Notes under the pieces: generated by a model
What the model saw: the letters and a program-made list of their open reading frames with translations, nothing else
The model's database searches: none
Told to the model about the DNA's origin: nothing
Position numbers and translations under genes: made by a program
Shown: positions 9,737 to 28,439 of the stretch, piece after piece
Layout: every line of letters starts with the position of its first letter
Position numbering within the stretch: position 1 is the stretch's first letter
Source: Bacteroidales bacterium
GTDB taxonomy: Bacteria > Bacteroidota > Bacteroidia > Bacteroidales > UBA932
Length of the DNA: 57,025 nt
Direction: 5' to 3'
NCBI GenBank assembly: GCA_016290835.1
Contig: JAEEVG010000008.1
Location: forward strand, 1-57,025

Positions 9737-10603
9737 ATGTATAAACTGATTTGCGTTCTGGTCTCCACAGACCACCTGCCGAGCCGCCTCTGGTTCCGGG
9801 AAGAGGAAGATTTCAAAGTTGCGATGAACTATGTCGCCGTCATTTCCAGCATGATGGGTATTCCGGTGCTGGCCTTCATCCTGATGTCCAACCACGTTCA
9901 CTTTGTCTTGGGCTGCAGCCGGGAAGAGGCGCTCGCCTTTATCACAGAATTCAAAAGGCGTTATAGCAAATACTATCAGCGGAAATATGGAATCAAAGAA
10001 TTCTTGCGCAGGAACGGTGTAGATATCAGGGAATTAGAGGAAGAGGACGAGACATTGGAGCGGGCTATCGCCTATGTCCAGATGAACAGTGTCGCCGCCG
10101 GCATCTGCGCCAACGCCGCCTTCTATCCCTGGGGCACGGGAGAAAGCTTTTTCCGGGCAGACCAAAAAGAAGGAGCGCTCCTGTCCGACCTTTCCCAAAG
10201 AAAACAGTTCCGTCTGCTTCATAGCCGGGATCAGCCGAAGGCGCCGCTCCGGCTGACGGACAACGGGTATGTGGACCCGGCGTCTTTTGTCGCCGTTCAA
10301 TTTGTAGAAAAACTCTTCCGGACACCGGCCCGGTACAATTTCTTCTTGCAGAACTCTTCAAAAGCGCGTCTGCGCCTCCAGGAAAGCCCAACCCCCTTGT
10401 TCCGGGATCAGGTCATCCTCGGTCTTGTCCAGGAATTGTGCCATTCCTTATTCCGGAAACGCTCTTTGGACAATCTTTCGCCGAAACAGACCGGAGAGTT
10501 GCTCCGGCAGTTGCGGTTTCGCTTCAACACCGAGCCGGCCCAACTCGCCCGCGTCCTCGAACTCCCCTACGAAACCATCACCCGCCTCCTCGACACCTTC
10601 TAA
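9737..10603 (+). CDS. REP-associated tyrosine transposase (Y1/IS200-like, RAYT)
   Basis: A 288-aa single-strand DNA transposase of the Y1_Tnp family. The HUH metal motif is visible in ILMSNHVHFVLG (about residues 49-60). The likely nucleophile Tyr is in the helix FITEFKRRYSKYYQRKYG (about 73-91). The C-terminal quarter adds a helix-turn-helix-like segment (AQLARVLELPYETITRLLDTF), as in longer RAYT groups. RAYTs act on REP hairpins and are usually single-copy domesticated genes. Two matching hairpins lie just upstream (9573-9651). It is the only rightward gene in the first 20 kb, consistent with arrival as a separate element. A strong terminator follows. Confidence 0.88.
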   Translation: MYKLICVLVSTDHLPSRLWFREEEDFKVAMNYVAVISSMMGIPVLAFILMSNHVHFVLGCSREEALAFITEFKRRYSKYYQRKYGIKEFLRRNGVDIRELEEEDETLERAIAYVQMNSVAAGICANAAFYPWGTGESFFRADQKEGALLSDLSQRKQFRLLHSRDQPKAPLRLTDNGYVDPASFVAVQFVEKLFRTPARYNFFLQNSSKARLRLQESPTPLFRDQVILGLVQELCHSLFRKRSLDNLSPKQTGELLRQLRFRFNTEPAQLARVLELPYETITRLLDTF

Positions 10604-16901: not shown

Positions 16902-19900
16902 TTATCGCAACTTGCCTAAAATGGTATGTGCTTCCTTCAAAGAAGGAACTCCCCGCACCACTATCTTAAGTTTGTTCTCGGTCTGCTTGAGTTCAAAGCG
17001 GGGATTGTCCGCCGTACGCTCCAGAATCCTGGCGAAGACGGGGGACTTGTAATACGGCGACATCGGATTCGCAATGAAAAACGCGATCATCAGGCCGTTC
17101 TTGACAATGACTTTCTCGAAGCCCAGTGCGGCGCCCAGGTTGCGGAGTTTCACCACCTCGAAGAGGTTGCCCACTTCGGGCGGCAGGGTGCCGAAACGGT
17201 CTGCGAGCTGCGAGGCATAGCGGTCGATTTCCTTGTCGGTAGACATCGCGTCGATGGTGCGGTAGATGCGGATTTTCTCGGCGGTCACATCGATGTATTC
17301 ATCTGGGATATGCGCCGGCTGGTCGGTTTCTATCGTACAGTCCGTCACGAACTTACCTCTATCGCTACGAGTCACGATGCCCGTCTCTACACCCAGTTCC
17401 TCCATCGCTTCGGCGAGGATCTTCTGGTAGGTTTCGAAGCCCATGTCCAGGATGAAGCCGCTCTGTTCGGCGCCCAGCAGGTTGCCGGCGCCGCGGATAT
17501 CCAGGTCCTGCATCGCGATGTTGAAACCACTGCCCAGGTCCGAGAATTCCTCGATGGCCTTGAGCCGGCGCCGGGCATCATCGGTGATGCTCACCAGCGG
17601 CGGGACGATGAGGTAGCAGAAAGCCTTCTTGTTGGATCTGCCCACGCGGCCGCGCAACTGGTGGAGGTCGCTCAGGCCGAAATTCTGCGCCTGGTTGATC
17701 AAGATGGTGTTGGCATTGGGGATGTCCAGACCATTCTCAATCAGGGTGGTACAGAGCATCATATCGTAGTCGCCCCGGATGAAGTCCAGCATCCGGGTCT
17801 CCAGTTCGTGGGCCTGCATCTGGCCGTGCGCCACGCAAATCTTCATATCCGGCACCAGGCGGTGCAGGATATCGTGGATGGCGGGAAGTTCTTCGACCTT
17901 GTTGTGCAGGAAGAATATCTGCCCGCCACGGTTGAGTTCGTAGTTGATGATGCTGCGGATCTCTTTTTCATCGAAAAGGATGATCTCCGTCTGTACCGGA
18001 ATGCGGTTGGGCGGCGGGGTGTTGATGATGCTGAGATCGCGTGCGCCCAACAGGGAGAACTGCAGGGTGCGGGGGATCGGGGTGGCCGTCAGCGTCAGGG
18101 TATCCACGGTGGCCCGGATGGCGCGGAGTTTCTCCTTGGCGGAGACGCCGAATTTCTGTTCCTCGTCAATGATCAGCAGGCCCAGGTCTTTGAAAACAAA
18201 TTCTTTACTGAGAATCTTGTGCGTGCCTATCAGGATATCTATCCGGCCTTCCGCCAGCCGTTTCTTGATGTCGGTTATCTCCTTGGCCGTGCGCAGGCGG
18301 CTGACATATTCCACATTGCAGGGAAGGTTCTGCAGGCGTCCCTGAAAGGTGTTGTAGTGCTGCAGGGCCAGGATGGTGGTCGGCACCAGCACAGCTACCT
18401 GTTTGCTGTCCGAAACGGCTTTGAACGCCGCCCGGACGGCGATTTCCGTCTTGCCGAAACCCACGTCGCCGCAGATCAGGCGGTCCATCGGGCAACTGTC
18501 CTCCATATCCCGCTTGACGGCGGCCGTGGCCGTCTCCTGGTCAGGCGTATCTTCGTACATGAAAGAAGATTCCAACTCTTCCTGCAGATAGGTATCGGGG
18601 GAGAAGGAGAACCCTTTGGAAGCGCGGCGCTTGGCGTAGAGTTGAATCAGGTCCTTGGCAATGTCTTTTACCTTGGATTTGGCGTTGGTCTTGAGGGTTA
18701 CCCAAGTCTTGGAGCCGAGTTTGTTGATGCGGGGCGCCTCTCCCTCCCGCGAACGGAAACGGGATATTTTATGCAGGGCGTGGACGGACACGAACACCAC
18801 GTCGCCATCCTTGTAGGTGATTTTCACCACTTCCCGCAGTCTTCCGCGGTCGTCGCGCAGCCGCACCAGGCCGCCGAAAATGCCCACGCCGTGGTCGATA
18901 TGGACGACGTAATCCCCGATATTGAAGGAATTCAAGTCGTTGATGGTCAGCTGCTCGCTCTTCTCCACCGTGCGCCGGAGGCTGACGCGGTGGAAACGGT
19001 CGAAGATTTCGTGGTCAGAGTAACAGCAGATTTTGTCCTGCTGGTCGATGAATCCATTGTGGATGTTCTTCCCGGGGACGAATTCAGGGATCAATCCGCC
19101 GTTCTGGGACAGGATGGAACGGACGCGTTCGAGCTGGGACTCTTTTTCTCCGTAGATATAGACTTTGAAACCGTTCTCCAGGCGGCTGCGGATATCTTCA
19201 GTCAGGAGCTCGAAATTCTTGTTGAAAGTGGGTTGCGGGGATATCTGGAAACCCAGTATATCGTCTCCCGCATAGGAGAGGGGAGTGTCTATATAAATCT
19301 TCTGGAAACGTTTCAGGAGCGGGAAGAAGTCTTCCCGGGAATACATATCCGAAGAATCCAGCCAAATACGGGTCCCTGCAGGGAAAATTTCCGTCAGATT
19401 CTGTCCTGCGGCGGCCGCACCGCTCACCATATCCGGAACGATGTCCGCCTTGTCCATTTTATCCTTGGAGAGCTGGGTATTGCAATCGAACGAATGAATG
19501 GATTCTATCTCATTACCCCAGAAGGAAATACGATAGGGATAATTATCCGAAAAAGAGAATATATCCACGATGGATCCGCGGATGGCATACTGCCCCGGCG
19601 CGGATACAAAGTCTACCTTGTCAAAGCCTTTTTCCGAAAGGATATGGATAATCTTGTCGTGGGCAATCTCATCCCCCACCCGGATGCTGAGCACCGAATC
19701 CTTGATTTCCTTCGTTACGGGAATTTCCTCGGACAGTGCCTGCGGATAGGTGACCACGAAGAGCAGACTGCCGTCATAAGAAAGGATTTTGCTGATGGCG
19801 GAGGTCCGCTGGACGCCCAGCGAAGATTTGTAATTGCTCCGCTCCACGCTCTTTCCCGATTCCGGCAGGAAAAACACCCTGTCCCCCTCGATCAGGTGAT

Positions 19901-20084
19901 AGAGATCCCCGGCACAATACTCAGCTGCTTCCTGGTTGGGAAGTACGATGATATGGATTCCTTCCCGGGCCACCTGGCTCAAGACGAACCAGCGGGCAGA
20001 CAAAAAGAGCCCACGACAGAATACGTCCGCACCGGATCTGATCCTGTCCCGAAGAATCTCCGAAGATTTTGAACTTATCAACAT
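16902..20084 (-). CDS. mfd: Transcription-repair coupling factor Mfd
   Basis: A 1060-aa ATP-dependent translocase that removes stalled RNA polymerase from damaged DNA and recruits UvrA. Visible parts are: UvrB-like N-terminal domain (about 20-310), RNA-polymerase interaction (CarD-like) domain (about 385-450, starting NIGDYVVHIDHGVGIFGG), Walker A GDVGFGKTEIA near 545, DEEQ box IDEEQKFGVSAKEKL near 641, and helicase motif VI QLRGRVGRSNKKAFCYL. The C-terminal TRCF domain has EEFSDLGSGFNIAMQDLDIRG. It is somewhat shorter than E. coli Mfd (1148) but like other Bacteroidetes. The ATG lies inside the first TTATCAACA box of the candidate origin and is preceded by AGGAG with almost no spacing. Confidence 0.96.
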   Translation of the reverse strand: MLISSKSSEILRDRIRSGADVFCRGLFLSARWFVLSQVAREGIHIIVLPNQEAAEYCAGDLYHLIEGDRVFFLPESGKSVERSNYKSSLGVQRTSAISKILSYDGSLLFVVTYPQALSEEIPVTKEIKDSVLSIRVGDEIAHDKIIHILSEKGFDKVDFVSAPGQYAIRGSIVDIFSFSDNYPYRISFWGNEIESIHSFDCNTQLSKDKMDKADIVPDMVSGAAAAGQNLTEIFPAGTRIWLDSSDMYSREDFFPLLKRFQKIYIDTPLSYAGDDILGFQISPQPTFNKNFELLTEDIRSRLENGFKVYIYGEKESQLERVRSILSQNGGLIPEFVPGKNIHNGFIDQQDKICCYSDHEIFDRFHRVSLRRTVEKSEQLTINDLNSFNIGDYVVHIDHGVGIFGGLVRLRDDRGRLREVVKITYKDGDVVFVSVHALHKISRFRSREGEAPRINKLGSKTWVTLKTNAKSKVKDIAKDLIQLYAKRRASKGFSFSPDTYLQEELESSFMYEDTPDQETATAAVKRDMEDSCPMDRLICGDVGFGKTEIAVRAAFKAVSDSKQVAVLVPTTILALQHYNTFQGRLQNLPCNVEYVSRLRTAKEITDIKKRLAEGRIDILIGTHKILSKEFVFKDLGLLIIDEEQKFGVSAKEKLRAIRATVDTLTLTATPIPRTLQFSLLGARDLSIINTPPPNRIPVQTEIILFDEKEIRSIINYELNRGGQIFFLHNKVEELPAIHDILHRLVPDMKICVAHGQMQAHELETRMLDFIRGDYDMMLCTTLIENGLDIPNANTILINQAQNFGLSDLHQLRGRVGRSNKKAFCYLIVPPLVSITDDARRRLKAIEEFSDLGSGFNIAMQDLDIRGAGNLLGAEQSGFILDMGFETYQKILAEAMEELGVETGIVTRSDRGKFVTDCTIETDQPAHIPDEYIDVTAEKIRIYRTIDAMSTDKEIDRYASQLADRFGTLPPEVGNLFEVVKLRNLGAALGFEKVIVKNGLMIAFFIANPMSPYYKSPVFARILERTADNPRFELKQTENKLKIVVRGVPSLKEAHTILGKLR

Positions 20085-20300
20085 CTCCTGTCTAAAACCG
20101 GTTGAAAAGCCTGTTGATATCCTGTTGATGCCGGATTCTTTTCTGTTGACAAATCCGGACGCTCACTTATCAACAACGCTGAAAACAGGGTTTCAACAGC
20201 TTTCTCAACCTTTATTTTTATTTATAATATCTTTATTTTCAGGCCTTTGAAGTATTTATCAACATTTCAACAGGCCTATAAAAAAGATAAAAAAATTTCA
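20075..20300. other. Candidate chromosomal replication origin (DnaA-box cluster and AT-rich element)
   Basis: The mfd-ruvB gap holds three exact TTATCAACA boxes on the plus strand (20075-20083, 20167-20175, 20256-20264), each one mismatch from the E. coli DnaA box TTATCCACA. Relaxed copies on the other strand are at 20112-20120 (ATATCAACA), 20123-20131 (GCATCAACA) and 20144-20152 (TTGTCAACA). Extra TTTCAACAG words occur at 20191 and 20266. An AT-rich stretch (about 20202-20240, and again from 20278) could be the unwinding element. Two AGGCCT sites (20241, 20272) flank the third box as part of an imperfect hairpin. Function is inference. Confidence 0.5.
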
Positions 20301-20312
20301 AAATAAAAGAGT

Positions 20313-20320
20313 TATATTTG
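20313..20320 (+). promoter_or_regulatory. -7 box of ruvB
   Basis: TATATTTG ending 8 bases before the ruvB ATG, with TTTC 17 bases upstream of its first base as a weak -33. The leader would be only a few bases. Confidence 0.65.
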
Positions 20321-20328
20321 TATTCTGA

Positions 20329-21363
20329 ATGCCATCGAACCGTATGTCCGATTTCGACCCACATAATACTAACGGATGCAAAGATAAGGATTTGGACGGA
20401 ATAATCCGGCCACGCGAACTGGAAGATTTCACCGGGCAGGGGGAAATTGTGTCCCGCCTCCGGATCTACATCCAGGCCGCGAAGCTGCGCGGAGAGTCTC
20501 TGGACCATACCCTGTTCCACGGTCCTCCCGGTCTGGGAAAGACCACCCTGGCGCATATCATCGCCAACGAGATGGGGGTCAATATGAAGATCACTTCCGG
20601 TCCGGTTCTCGTCCGCCCCGGGGATCTGGCCGGTCTGCTGACTTCCCTCGAGACGGGCGATGTCCTGTTCATCGACGAAATCCATCGTCTTCCGGCTGAA
20701 GTGGAGGAATATCTGTATTCCGCGATGGAGGATTATGTAATTGATATCATGATTGATAAAGGGCCTGGCGCCCGGTCCGTGCGCATATCCCTCAATCCTT
20801 TCACCCTGGTGGGGGCCACGACGCGGGCAGGCCTGCTTACGGCGCCGCTCCGGGCCCGTTTCGGGATTACCGAAGGCCTGGAATATTACGATACCGACGA
20901 CCTGGTGCGCATCGTGACGCGCAGCGCAGGCATCCTGCAGATCGAGATCGAGCCCGAGGCGGCGCGGGAGATAGCCCTGCGCAGTCGCGGAACCCCGCGA
21001 ATCGCCAATTCCCTGCTGCGCCGGGTGCGCGACTTCGCCCAGGTGGTGGGCGACGGCCACATCGACCTGAAGATCGCGCGTTACGCGTTGGATAAATTGA
21101 ATATAGACAAGCGGGGACTGGATTCCATTGACAACAAGATCCTCCGCACCATCATCTCCACCTTCAAGGGCGGCCCCGTGGGGGCCAATACCCTCTCGAC
21201 CGCCATCGGCGAAGACCAGGGCACCTATGAAGAAGTCTATGAGCCCTTCCTGATCAAGGAAGGTTTCATCGTCCGCACCCAGCGCGGCCGCGTGGCCACC
21301 GAGCTTTCTTACAAGCATCTGGGGCTGGATCCTTATCAGAACAATGCCGGCTCCCTCTTTTGA
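20329..21363 (+). CDS. ruvB: Holliday junction branch-migration ATPase RuvB
   Basis: A 344-aa AAA+ motor that drives branch migration with RuvA. Motifs: [12 protein letters not shown] (about 25-36), Walker [12 protein letters not shown] (about 65-75), Walker [12 protein letters not shown] (about 110-120), sensor 1 [19 protein letters not shown], and a C-terminal winged helix ending in [20 protein letters not shown]. The start could also be Met6 (MSDFDP); both fit the short-leader promoter. It is the first rightward gene after the candidate origin and is followed after 26 bases by the fumarate reductase genes. ruvA is separate at 28.4-29.0 kb on the opposite strand. Confidence 0.96.
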
Positions 21364-26157: not shown

Positions 26158-26577
26158 ATGGTCCGTTATTTCCAGGAAGATATACGATTTGAGTTGAAGC
26201 AAAAGATGCTCAACAACCGCTGGTTGAAGATGGTCGCGGGCAGCGAAATGCGCCGCCTCGGAGCCATCAACATCATCTTCTGTTCGGACAACTATATCCT
26301 GGATGTTAACCTGAAATATCTTCAGCACGACTATTTCACCGACATCATCACTTTCGACTATTGCGAGAAGGATATCCTTTCCGGCGACCTGTTCATCAGC
26401 ATCGATTCCGTCCGGGAGAATGCCCGCACCTACGGGACCACTTTCGAAAATGAACTCGACCGGGTGATGGTGCACGGACTGCTCCACCTGATCGGTTACG
26501 ACGACCATACCCCGGAGCAGACCGCCGAGATGCGCCGGAAAGAGAATTATTATCTCGAGATGAAAGCCGCACTCTGA
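26158..26577 (+). CDS. ybeY: Endoribonuclease YbeY (rRNA maturation factor)
   Basis: A 139-aa metal-dependent RNase needed for 16S rRNA 3'-end maturation and ribosome quality control. The zinc triad is plain in [12 protein letters not shown] (about residues 105-116). A DIITFDY strand earlier matches the family. The start is set at [12 protein letters not shown], because the longer open frame would include the TAAATTTG promoter. Its stop overlaps the mnmG start (TGATG), so the two are translated together. Confidence 0.94.
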
Positions 26578-28439
26578 TGGACAGGGTCTATGACATCATC
26601 GTGGTCGGGGGAGGGCACGCCGGATGCGAGGCAGCGATGGCCGCCGCGACGCTCGGCTCTTCCGTGCTGCTGATCACGATGGACATGACCGGTTTCGCGC
26701 GCATGTCCTGCAACCCGGCGGTGGGCGGAATTGCCAAGGGACAGATCGTCCGGGAGATCGATGCGCTCGGCGGATGGACCGGCGTAGTCACCGACCGCTC
26801 GACCTTGCAGTTCCGGATGCTCAACCGCTCGAAGGGGCCCGCGATGTGGAGTCCCCGGGCGCAGTGCGATAAAATCCAGTTTTCGCTGAATTGGCGTAAA
26901 ATACTCGAAAGTAATTATAAATTAAGTATTTACGCGGATTCTGCGGTCTCTTTCCTTTTTGAGAATTCAAAAATCTGCGGCGTACGTACGAATACCGGGG
27001 CAATTTTCAAGTCTCAGGCGCTTATTCTGACCGCCGGAACCTTTTTGTCGGGCCGGCTCTTCATCGGCCGCACGATGATGGAAGGGGGCCGTCTCGGCGA
27101 GCAGGCTTCTTACGGCCTGACCGGACAACTCAAGGAAAGGGGCATTCTCACCGACCGGATGAAGACAGGCACCCCGCCCCGCATCGACATTTCTTCCGTT
27201 GATACTTCGCGCCTGACCCTCCAACCCGGCGACACGGATCCCGCGCGCTTCTCTTTCCTGCCGGAGCCTTCGACGGTGCAGGCTGGCGGCGAAGCACAGA
27301 TGCAGTGTTACATTCTCCACACCAACGAAAGGGTTCACGAAATCCTGCGCACCGGATTCGAGGACTCCCCGCTTTTTACCGGGATGATCCACGGCCGGGG
27401 ACCGCGCTACTGTCCGAGCATCGAAGACAAACTCCGCGTCTTCCCGGACAACAACGCACACCAGCTTTTCCTCGAACCCGAGGGCCGCTGGACGCACGAA
27501 TATTACTTGCAAGGTTTCTCTTCCTCGCTCCCGCTCCAGGTCCAGCTGGATGCCCTGCACGCCATCGAAGGGTTGGAAACAGCCCGGATCTACCGGCCGG
27601 CCTATGCGGTCGAATATGATTATTTCGACCCGACGCAATTGCTTCCGACTCTCGAATCCAAGCTGGTGGAGAACCTCTATCTGGCGGGCCAGGTGAATGG
27701 CACCACCGGGTACGAAGAGGCCGCGGCGCAGGGCTTGATGGCGGGTATCAATGCCCACCGGAAACTCCGCGGACAGGATCCGGTCGTTCTCCAGCGTGAC
27801 CAATCCTATATCGGCGTCCTGATCGACGACCTGGTCACCAAGGGCGTGGACGAGCCGTACCGGATGTTCACCTCGCGGGCGGAATACCGCATCCTCCTCC
27901 GGCAGGACAATGCCGATCGCCGGCTTACGCCGTTGGGTCACGAGATCGGTCTGGCCAGTGAAGAACGGTATGCGGCCGTGATGGAAAAGTATGAGCAGGC
28001 GGACCGGCTCCAGGCCTGGTGCGAGAGTAAGAACCTGACAAAAGAGCAGGCCAATCCCTATCTGCTTTCCGTCGGGTCCAGCCCCATCACGGAGTCCAAA
28101 CGCATAGCCGATCTGGCGACCCGTCCCGAAGTGGAACTGGCAGAATTGCTAAAAATCGTTCCACGTGGAACGCAGAGTAGGGAAGTGATCGAGAGTGTGG
28201 AGATATCCCTCCGGTACAAGGGCTACATCGACCGGGAACTGGCGATGGCGGAGAAATTGCACCGGCTCGAGGATCTCAGCATTCCGGTGGATTTCGATTT
28301 CGACCGGGTGGTGGGCCTGACGATCGAGTGTCGGCAGAAACTCAAAAAATATCGTCCGCTGACGATTGCCCAGGCTTCTCGCATTTCCGGGGTCTCGCCG
28401 GCGGACATATCCGTGCTGCTTGTCTATTTCGGGCGCTGA
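26577..28439 (+). CDS. mnmG: tRNA uridine-5-carboxymethylaminomethyl enzyme MnmG
   Basis: A 620-aa FAD protein that with MnmE modifies U34 of tRNAs. Motifs: [19 protein letters not shown] (about residues 9-27), [60 protein letters not shown] and the C-terminal GIDE domain with [17 protein letters not shown]. The historic name gidA reflects its usual place beside replication origins. Here it lies 6 kb from a candidate origin. A perfect parS-type palindrome occurs inside the coding sequence at 28157-28172. It converges with ruvA with 2 bases between stops. Confidence 0.97.
28157..28172. promoter_or_regulatory. parS: parS-type ParB-binding palindrome within mnmG
   Basis: CGTTCCACGTGGAACG, whose 14-base core GTTCCACGTGGAAC is a perfect palindrome. 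The known parS consensus is TGTTTCACGTGAAACA, with the Pseudomonas form TGTTCCACGTGGAAC. parS sites cluster near chromosomal origins. ParB binding here is inference; parA/parB are not in the window. Confidence 0.75.

Follow-up and report, generated by a model that had tools for sequence, protein, structure and literature searches.

Does chromosome replication in this Bacteroidales bacterium begin in the short gap between mfd and ruvB? The DNA analysed here (the window, 57,025 nt) comes from a genome of 2,656,203 b in 112 contigs, which probably belongs to the genus Ca. Cryptobacteroides. A first-pass annotation had put a candidate origin between the two genes, and word conservation, a switch in T−A skew and parS sites in relatives now support that proposal. 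We consider it very likely that the mfd–ruvB gap is the oriC of this Bacteroidales genus, with a DnaA-box array, opening beside ruvB and bidirectional forks. Our survey covered 25 genomes of the genus, none of them closed (fewest contigs, 8); G and L numbers below are our handles for genomes and loci.

A box array in an AT-rich gap

The gap spans 244 bp (20085-20328) and is 67.6% AT, against 39.7% AT in the 57-kb window, where 40 of 56,786 stretches of 240 nt are as AT-rich. Together with the mfd start it carries exact TTATCAACA at 20075, 20167 and 20256, all on the + strand, and eight TCAACA cores within 195 bp (+ 20078, 20170, 20193, 20259 and 20267; - 20112, 20123 and 20144). The first-pass annotation had read three exact words in one orientation, three relaxed ones on the other strand, two AT-rich blocks and a box over the mfd start codon, all of which we find again (Table 1). 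An intergenic cluster of DnaA-box type is a mark of oriC, and this gap has one; that TTATCAACA is a DnaA box, bound by DnaA, we infer. An AT-rich region beside the boxes, a further mark, would be provided by the 88% AT stretch next to ruvB.

Table 1. Predicted origin features and flanking landmarks in the window.
Feature	Position	Strand	Remark
Predicted oriC DnaA-box array, eight TCAACA-core sites	20075..20272	.	TTATCAACA in 38/41 related gaps
TTATCAACA box over mfd start codon	20075..20083	+	exact match
Relaxed box ATATCAACA	20112..20120	-	TCAACA core
Relaxed box GCATCAACA	20123..20131	-	TCAACA core
Relaxed box TTGTCAACA	20144..20152	-	TCAACA core
TTATCAACA box	20167..20175	+	exact match
Relaxed box GTTTCAACA	20190..20198	+	TCAACA core
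AT-rich block, first	20210..20240	.	read from sequence
Tandem pair TTATCAACA / ATTTCAACA	20256..20272	+	pair pattern in 35/41 gaps vs 0.12 expected
AT-rich stretch, 88% AT, NAN triplets; candidate unwinding element / DnaA-trio	20277..20326	+	3' of tandem pair
TATATTTG, predicted ruvB -7 promoter element	20313..20320	+	TATATTTGT in 37/41 gaps
mfd	16902..20084	-	left neighbour of gap
ruvB	20329..21363	+	right neighbour of gap
mnmG/gidA	26577..28439	+	origin-proximal landmark
parS-like palindrome	28157..28172	.	two mismatches to TGTTNCACGTGNAACA

Four copies of TTATCAACA occur in the 57-kb window against a shuffle mean of 0.10, and 0 of 100 shuffles reach four. Equal density of the word elsewhere would speak against an origin here; the opposite was found, since the genome holds 14 copies and, the trio of the gap excepted, no two of them lie less than 12.6 kb apart on one contig. 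The mfd–ruvB gap is also the best-scoring 300-bp stretch for DnaA boxes in all five sequences scanned (the window and stretches of G013, G016, G017 and G041). Eight relative genomes hold 14-47 copies of TTATCAACA each, among the matches listed, and close pairs outside the gap exist in relatives such as G017 and G013.

On the right flank, TATATTTG, which we take to be a -7 promoter element of Bacteroidetes type, stands only 8 nt ahead of the ruvB ATG at 20329, and a second in-frame ATG follows at 20344; ruvB may start at 20344, or it may be nearly leaderless. Next come a fumarate reductase/succinate dehydrogenase flavoprotein and then its iron-sulphur subunit. Farther on, between 31000 and 57025, the balance of genes is leftward, that is, against a fork from the gap, possibly through a lineage-specific inversion. 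The leftward direction described for the genes left of the gap is borne out for the six nearest main genes. At 9737-10603 a Y1/IS200-like transposase is matched weakly, short of the Pfam cut-off; the match lies on the other strand from the genes that separate it from the gap.

Conservation in relatives and in other families

We compiled loci L001–L111 (one from the window's genome, 29 from relatives' genomes, 80 named records and the dnaA locus) and took the 41 gaps in which mfd and ruvB diverge with 100–700 bp between them; all 41 sequences are distinct. Left out were the dnaA locus and 69 loci with mfd but no ruvB in the available DNA. Five of the 69 are close relatives whose locus is truncated by the end of the contig: two exact TTATCAACA are present in L007 and two in L015, L045 has none but three TTATCCACA, and L049 and L054 offer no usable DNA upstream of mfd. 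In the remaining 64, Mfd identity is below 57%; seven have less than 400 bp upstream and 57 have at least 400 bp.

Conserved word clusters between mfd and ruvB in related genomes had been named as a check on the proposal, and conservation is what we observed. Exact TTATCAACA was found in 38 of the 41 gaps against a Markov-shuffle mean of 0.45, being absent from L009, L019 and L051, and within 400 bp upstream of mfd it was found in 0 of the 64 distant loci without ruvB (57 with the full 400 bp). The box at the mfd start is exact in 20 of the 41 gaps and has at most one mismatch in 31, the tandem pair near ruvB recurs in 35 (its pattern is expected 0.12 times), and the ruvB promoter word TATATTTGT is present in 37. 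A recurrent layout runs from the mfd-start box through opposite-strand TGTTGAWAA words, an AT-rich part, the tandem pair and A-rich triplets to TATATTTGT, and it is kept across the 41 gaps though the intervening DNA has drifted.

The boxes themselves vary in a telling manner. The second box of the tandem pair ends in TCCACA in L043, L044, L052 and L098, TATCAACATATCCACA, with CCACA in place of CAACA, is present in four gaps, and classical TTATCCACA occurs in L002, L041, L050 and L051, that of L002 aligning with the window box at 20144. Classical box and variant thus swap at the mfd–ruvB locus, the behaviour expected of DnaA boxes. By eye, the mfd start of L005 and L006 is separated from the remaining boxes by an insertion that has long inverted arms.

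Outside the genus, we found TTATCAACA-type clusters in AT-rich gaps of three of eight parS-bearing stretches from other families (G026, G027 and G029, from three different families), 7.5–15.5 kb from parS. Named from translations, the neighbours are nadA and a TrmH-like gene in G026, rpiB and a MORN-repeat gene in G027, and nadA and rpiB in G029, the nadA genes of G026 and G029 resembling each other. The T−A breakpoint of G027 lies 170 bp from its cluster (rank 1 of 72), with the GC minimum 197 bp away; that of G026 is marginal (rank 8 of 40, 11/200 permutations). Within the part scanned, the best clusters of G028 and G038 fall inside genes, and G033, G035 and G036 gave only weak scores. TTATCAACA probably marks the origin beyond the genus while the neighbours change. 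A nadA query had no match in 25 of 25 genus genomes, many of them incomplete, and the switch to other origin neighbours may have been accompanied by loss of nadA.

We rejected nadA as a general Bacteroidales origin neighbour, as seven of 11 nadA loci have no cluster; TTATCAACA clusters occur in G026 and G029, while the AT-rich clusters of G033 and G039 are made up of different words, TTATTAACA among them. Upstream of nadA in L261 (G039), six TTATTAACA lie within 300 bp of 85% AT DNA (2619-2903), perhaps another DnaA-box variant in another family. An altered recognition helix of DnaA was also considered as the cause of the altered box. Among the 31 DnaA loci compared (L031 and L228-L257, of 36 above the cut-off), the helix reads HAT in 29, HTT in G033 and HST in G006, and HTT in PDB 8btg_A. 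G033 counts against this explanation, since it has HTT and, at its nadA locus, no TTATCCACA and TTTTCAACA-like words instead.

Conserved words between divergent genes might also be operators of a regulator, or sites where DnaA acts solely as a regulator, for the mfd and ruvB promoters, with replication starting elsewhere. The conserved ruvB promoter word in the gap and the box over the mfd start codon would suit such a role, as would the fact that both neighbours are repair genes. We nevertheless judge it highly improbable: the same clusters stand beside other genes (nadA, rpiB, TrmH-like) in G026, G027 and G029, and strand asymmetry switches at the gap in most relatives tested, as detailed below.

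Landmarks and strand asymmetry around the gap

mnmG and parS are landmarks of an oriC, and the first-pass annotation had rightly pointed to mnmG and a parS-type site close by (Table 1). The site, set against TGTTNCACGTGNAACA as the presumed parS consensus, lies inside the 3' part of mnmG, 7.9 kb from the gap; 0.05 sites with two mismatches are expected, and 4 of 100 shuffles have one. Exact parS was not found in the window's own genome and occurs in nine of 24 genus relatives. In six of the nine (G004, G011, G016, G017, G023 and G019) it is on the gap's contig, 8–32 kb off on the ruvB side; G019 carries mfd on two contigs, one of which was confirmed to hold the gap together with parS. In the other three (G005, G020 and G024) parS is in or just 3' of mnmG on short contigs, with the gap absent from the part read. 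In other families, parS is likewise close to mnmG.

dnaA of the window's genome is on a separate contig, C98, and in G013 and G016 it is likewise on a contig other than the gap's. An origin without dnaA beside it, as had been proposed, is an arrangement already known in Bacteroidetes (PMC4755523). The dnaA locus as origin was rejected: none of 31 dnaA loci, up to 4.4 kb long, holds more than two TTATCAACA, and these are scattered.

Total GC skew says little about the origin in these genomes: coding strands are rich in C at four-fold sites, and gene direction therefore drives the skew. A cumulative minimum at the gap, the check suggested at first pass, was obtained in part. In G013 (362 kb), G017 (120 kb) and G018 (105 kb) no more than 200 bp separate it from the gap, and in G021 it is 0.8 kb off, near the contig end; it is not at the gap in the window, G016 (22 kb off), G041, G003 and G023, the five with poor local GC V-scores. 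The GC rank of the gap over nine stretches is marginal (Fisher p=0.06), and four-fold GC skew by strand has one sign in the window, G018 and G003 and the opposite sign in G013 and G016 (all p<0.05). Plain GC skew, driven by gene direction and mixed in its results, was rejected as sole proof of an origin.

We compared T−A skew at four-fold sites between would-be leading and would-be lagging genes. It is higher in the would-be leading genes of all 11 stretches (the window, eight in-genus and two outgroup), with p<0.05 in 10, from 0.034 in the window down to 1e-32, and 0.13 in G003. In these genomes, T−A skew at four-fold sites may indicate the origin better than GC skew does. For breakpoints we used a fit with gene strand as covariate, whose permutations treat genes as independent. 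Six of nine in-genus stretches show a significant difference in strand-corrected T−A between the two sides of the gap, each with 0/200 permutations: G013 (rank 1 of 251 boundaries over 362 kb, best break 0.5 kb away), G021 (1 of 19, with few genes on the ruvB side), G023 (2 of 52, 2.7 kb), G041 (5 of 196, 5.3 kb), G017 (5 of 83, 5.4 kb) and G016 (12 of 423, 17.6 kb of 675 kb). The gap ranks 29 of 78 in G018, 17 of 48 in G003 and 9 of 31 in the window (79/200 permutations; 57 kb, 38 genes used), whose own 57 kb gives weak skew support for an origin at the gap. Fisher combination over the nine stretches gives p=6.6e-5. A strand-asymmetry switch, itself a mark of oriC, is thus found in six of nine in-genus stretches and in G027, and not in the window, G018 or G003.

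Gene orientation was examined as a walk over divergent gaps. The walk is lowest at mfd–ruvB in G013, G041, G017 and G021, second lowest in G016, G018 and the window, and ranks 6 of 12 in G003 and 5 of 11 in G023 (Fisher combination, p=0.003).

DnaA-titrating and DnaA-reactivating sites are known as datA and DARS. The array could be a site of this kind, origin-proximal by chance, with oriC some kb away, and the best switch does lie 5-18 kb from the gap in G016, G017, G041, G018 and G003. We give this even less credence than the operators. In G013 the switch comes to within about 0.5 kb of the gap, and in outgroup G027 to within 0.2 kb of the cluster; no other DnaA-box cluster outscores the gap in any of the five sequences scanned, and the tandem pair with its triplets looks like an opening site. 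The asymmetry switch, too, would tell against boxes that start no replication.

Proposed opening of the gap and comparison with known origins

If the gap is oriC, DnaA encoded elsewhere would occupy the TTATCAACA-type boxes and then spread from the tandem pair (20256–20272) along a single strand of the neighbouring AT-rich stretch, with its NAN triplets from about 20277. DnaA would open this stretch, and forks would depart both ways, with mfd and ruvB each transcribed with the fork. The opening side is probably that of ruvB, because NAN runs 3' of the pair exceed those of shuffles when judged by the rule of PMC8287927. These runs average 5.2 triplets against 3.7 in shuffles, a value reached by 0 of 200 shuffle sets. 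The BUS/DnaA-trio pattern (box or boxes, a spacer of up to 16 nt and at least three NAN triplets) is present here: 35 of 41 gaps have the pair, and 34 of these 35 have runs of at least three NAN triplets. The triplet feature is weak alone, since this A-rich DNA yields a mean of 3.7 even when shuffled. Pair and triplets together resemble an unwinding element.

A more speculative idea, which we think unlikely, is that the origin now lies between repair genes so that DnaA at the mfd-start box and opening at the ruvB promoter tie Mfd and RuvB expression to initiation, the place near mnmG and parS being kept and the neighbours exchanged (nadA/rpiB-type in some other families).

Neither an mfd–ruvB origin nor TTATCAACA as a Bacteroidales DnaA box was reported among the open-access papers listed. 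Within that scope, the origin site in the genus, the word common to other families, the mfd-start box and the neighbour exchange are apparently new. For a group of uncultured gut bacteria the gap offers an origin placed precisely enough to test, and TTATCAACA can serve as a working DnaA-box word in the family and probably in other families of the order. A correct origin is needed when growth rates are estimated from read depth. As to the word, DnaA boxes are described as often species-specific, and the E. coli box TTATCCACA is given as the default of Ori-Finder 2022 (both PMC10225481); TTATCAACA is given as one box of the Cyanothece linear chromosome in PMC4674748, and the word also occurs in the text of PMC3322544.

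Passages of PMC4755523 describe origins far from dnaA as common in Bacteroidetes. Such origins being already known there, the gap is a well-supported further case. In the same source, chromosome I of Prevotella intermedia OMA14 has a predicted oriC far from dnaA, with a GC-skew transition and multiple DnaA boxes called with one mismatch allowed to the E. coli box (PMC4755523). OMA14, as described there, and the mfd–ruvB gap are both Bacteroidales cases with multiple DnaA boxes, an asymmetry transition and a place away from dnaA.

E. coli oriC is an array of 9-mer DnaA boxes beside an AT-rich region, and the gap is like it in this and in having mnmG in the vicinity. E. coli oriC adjoins gidA/mnmG, according to a passage of PMC10225481; unlike it, the gap has the box TTATCAACA, not TTATCCACA, and is flanked by mfd and ruvB, with mnmG 6 kb off. 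The basal unwinding system, BUS, is outlined in parts of PMC8287927 and PMC6669920 as DnaA boxes, a short spacer and triplets with a central A. The gap appears to share this order of boxes, short spacer and central-A triplets, and differs in that its NAN triplets are variable and its element a candidate one.
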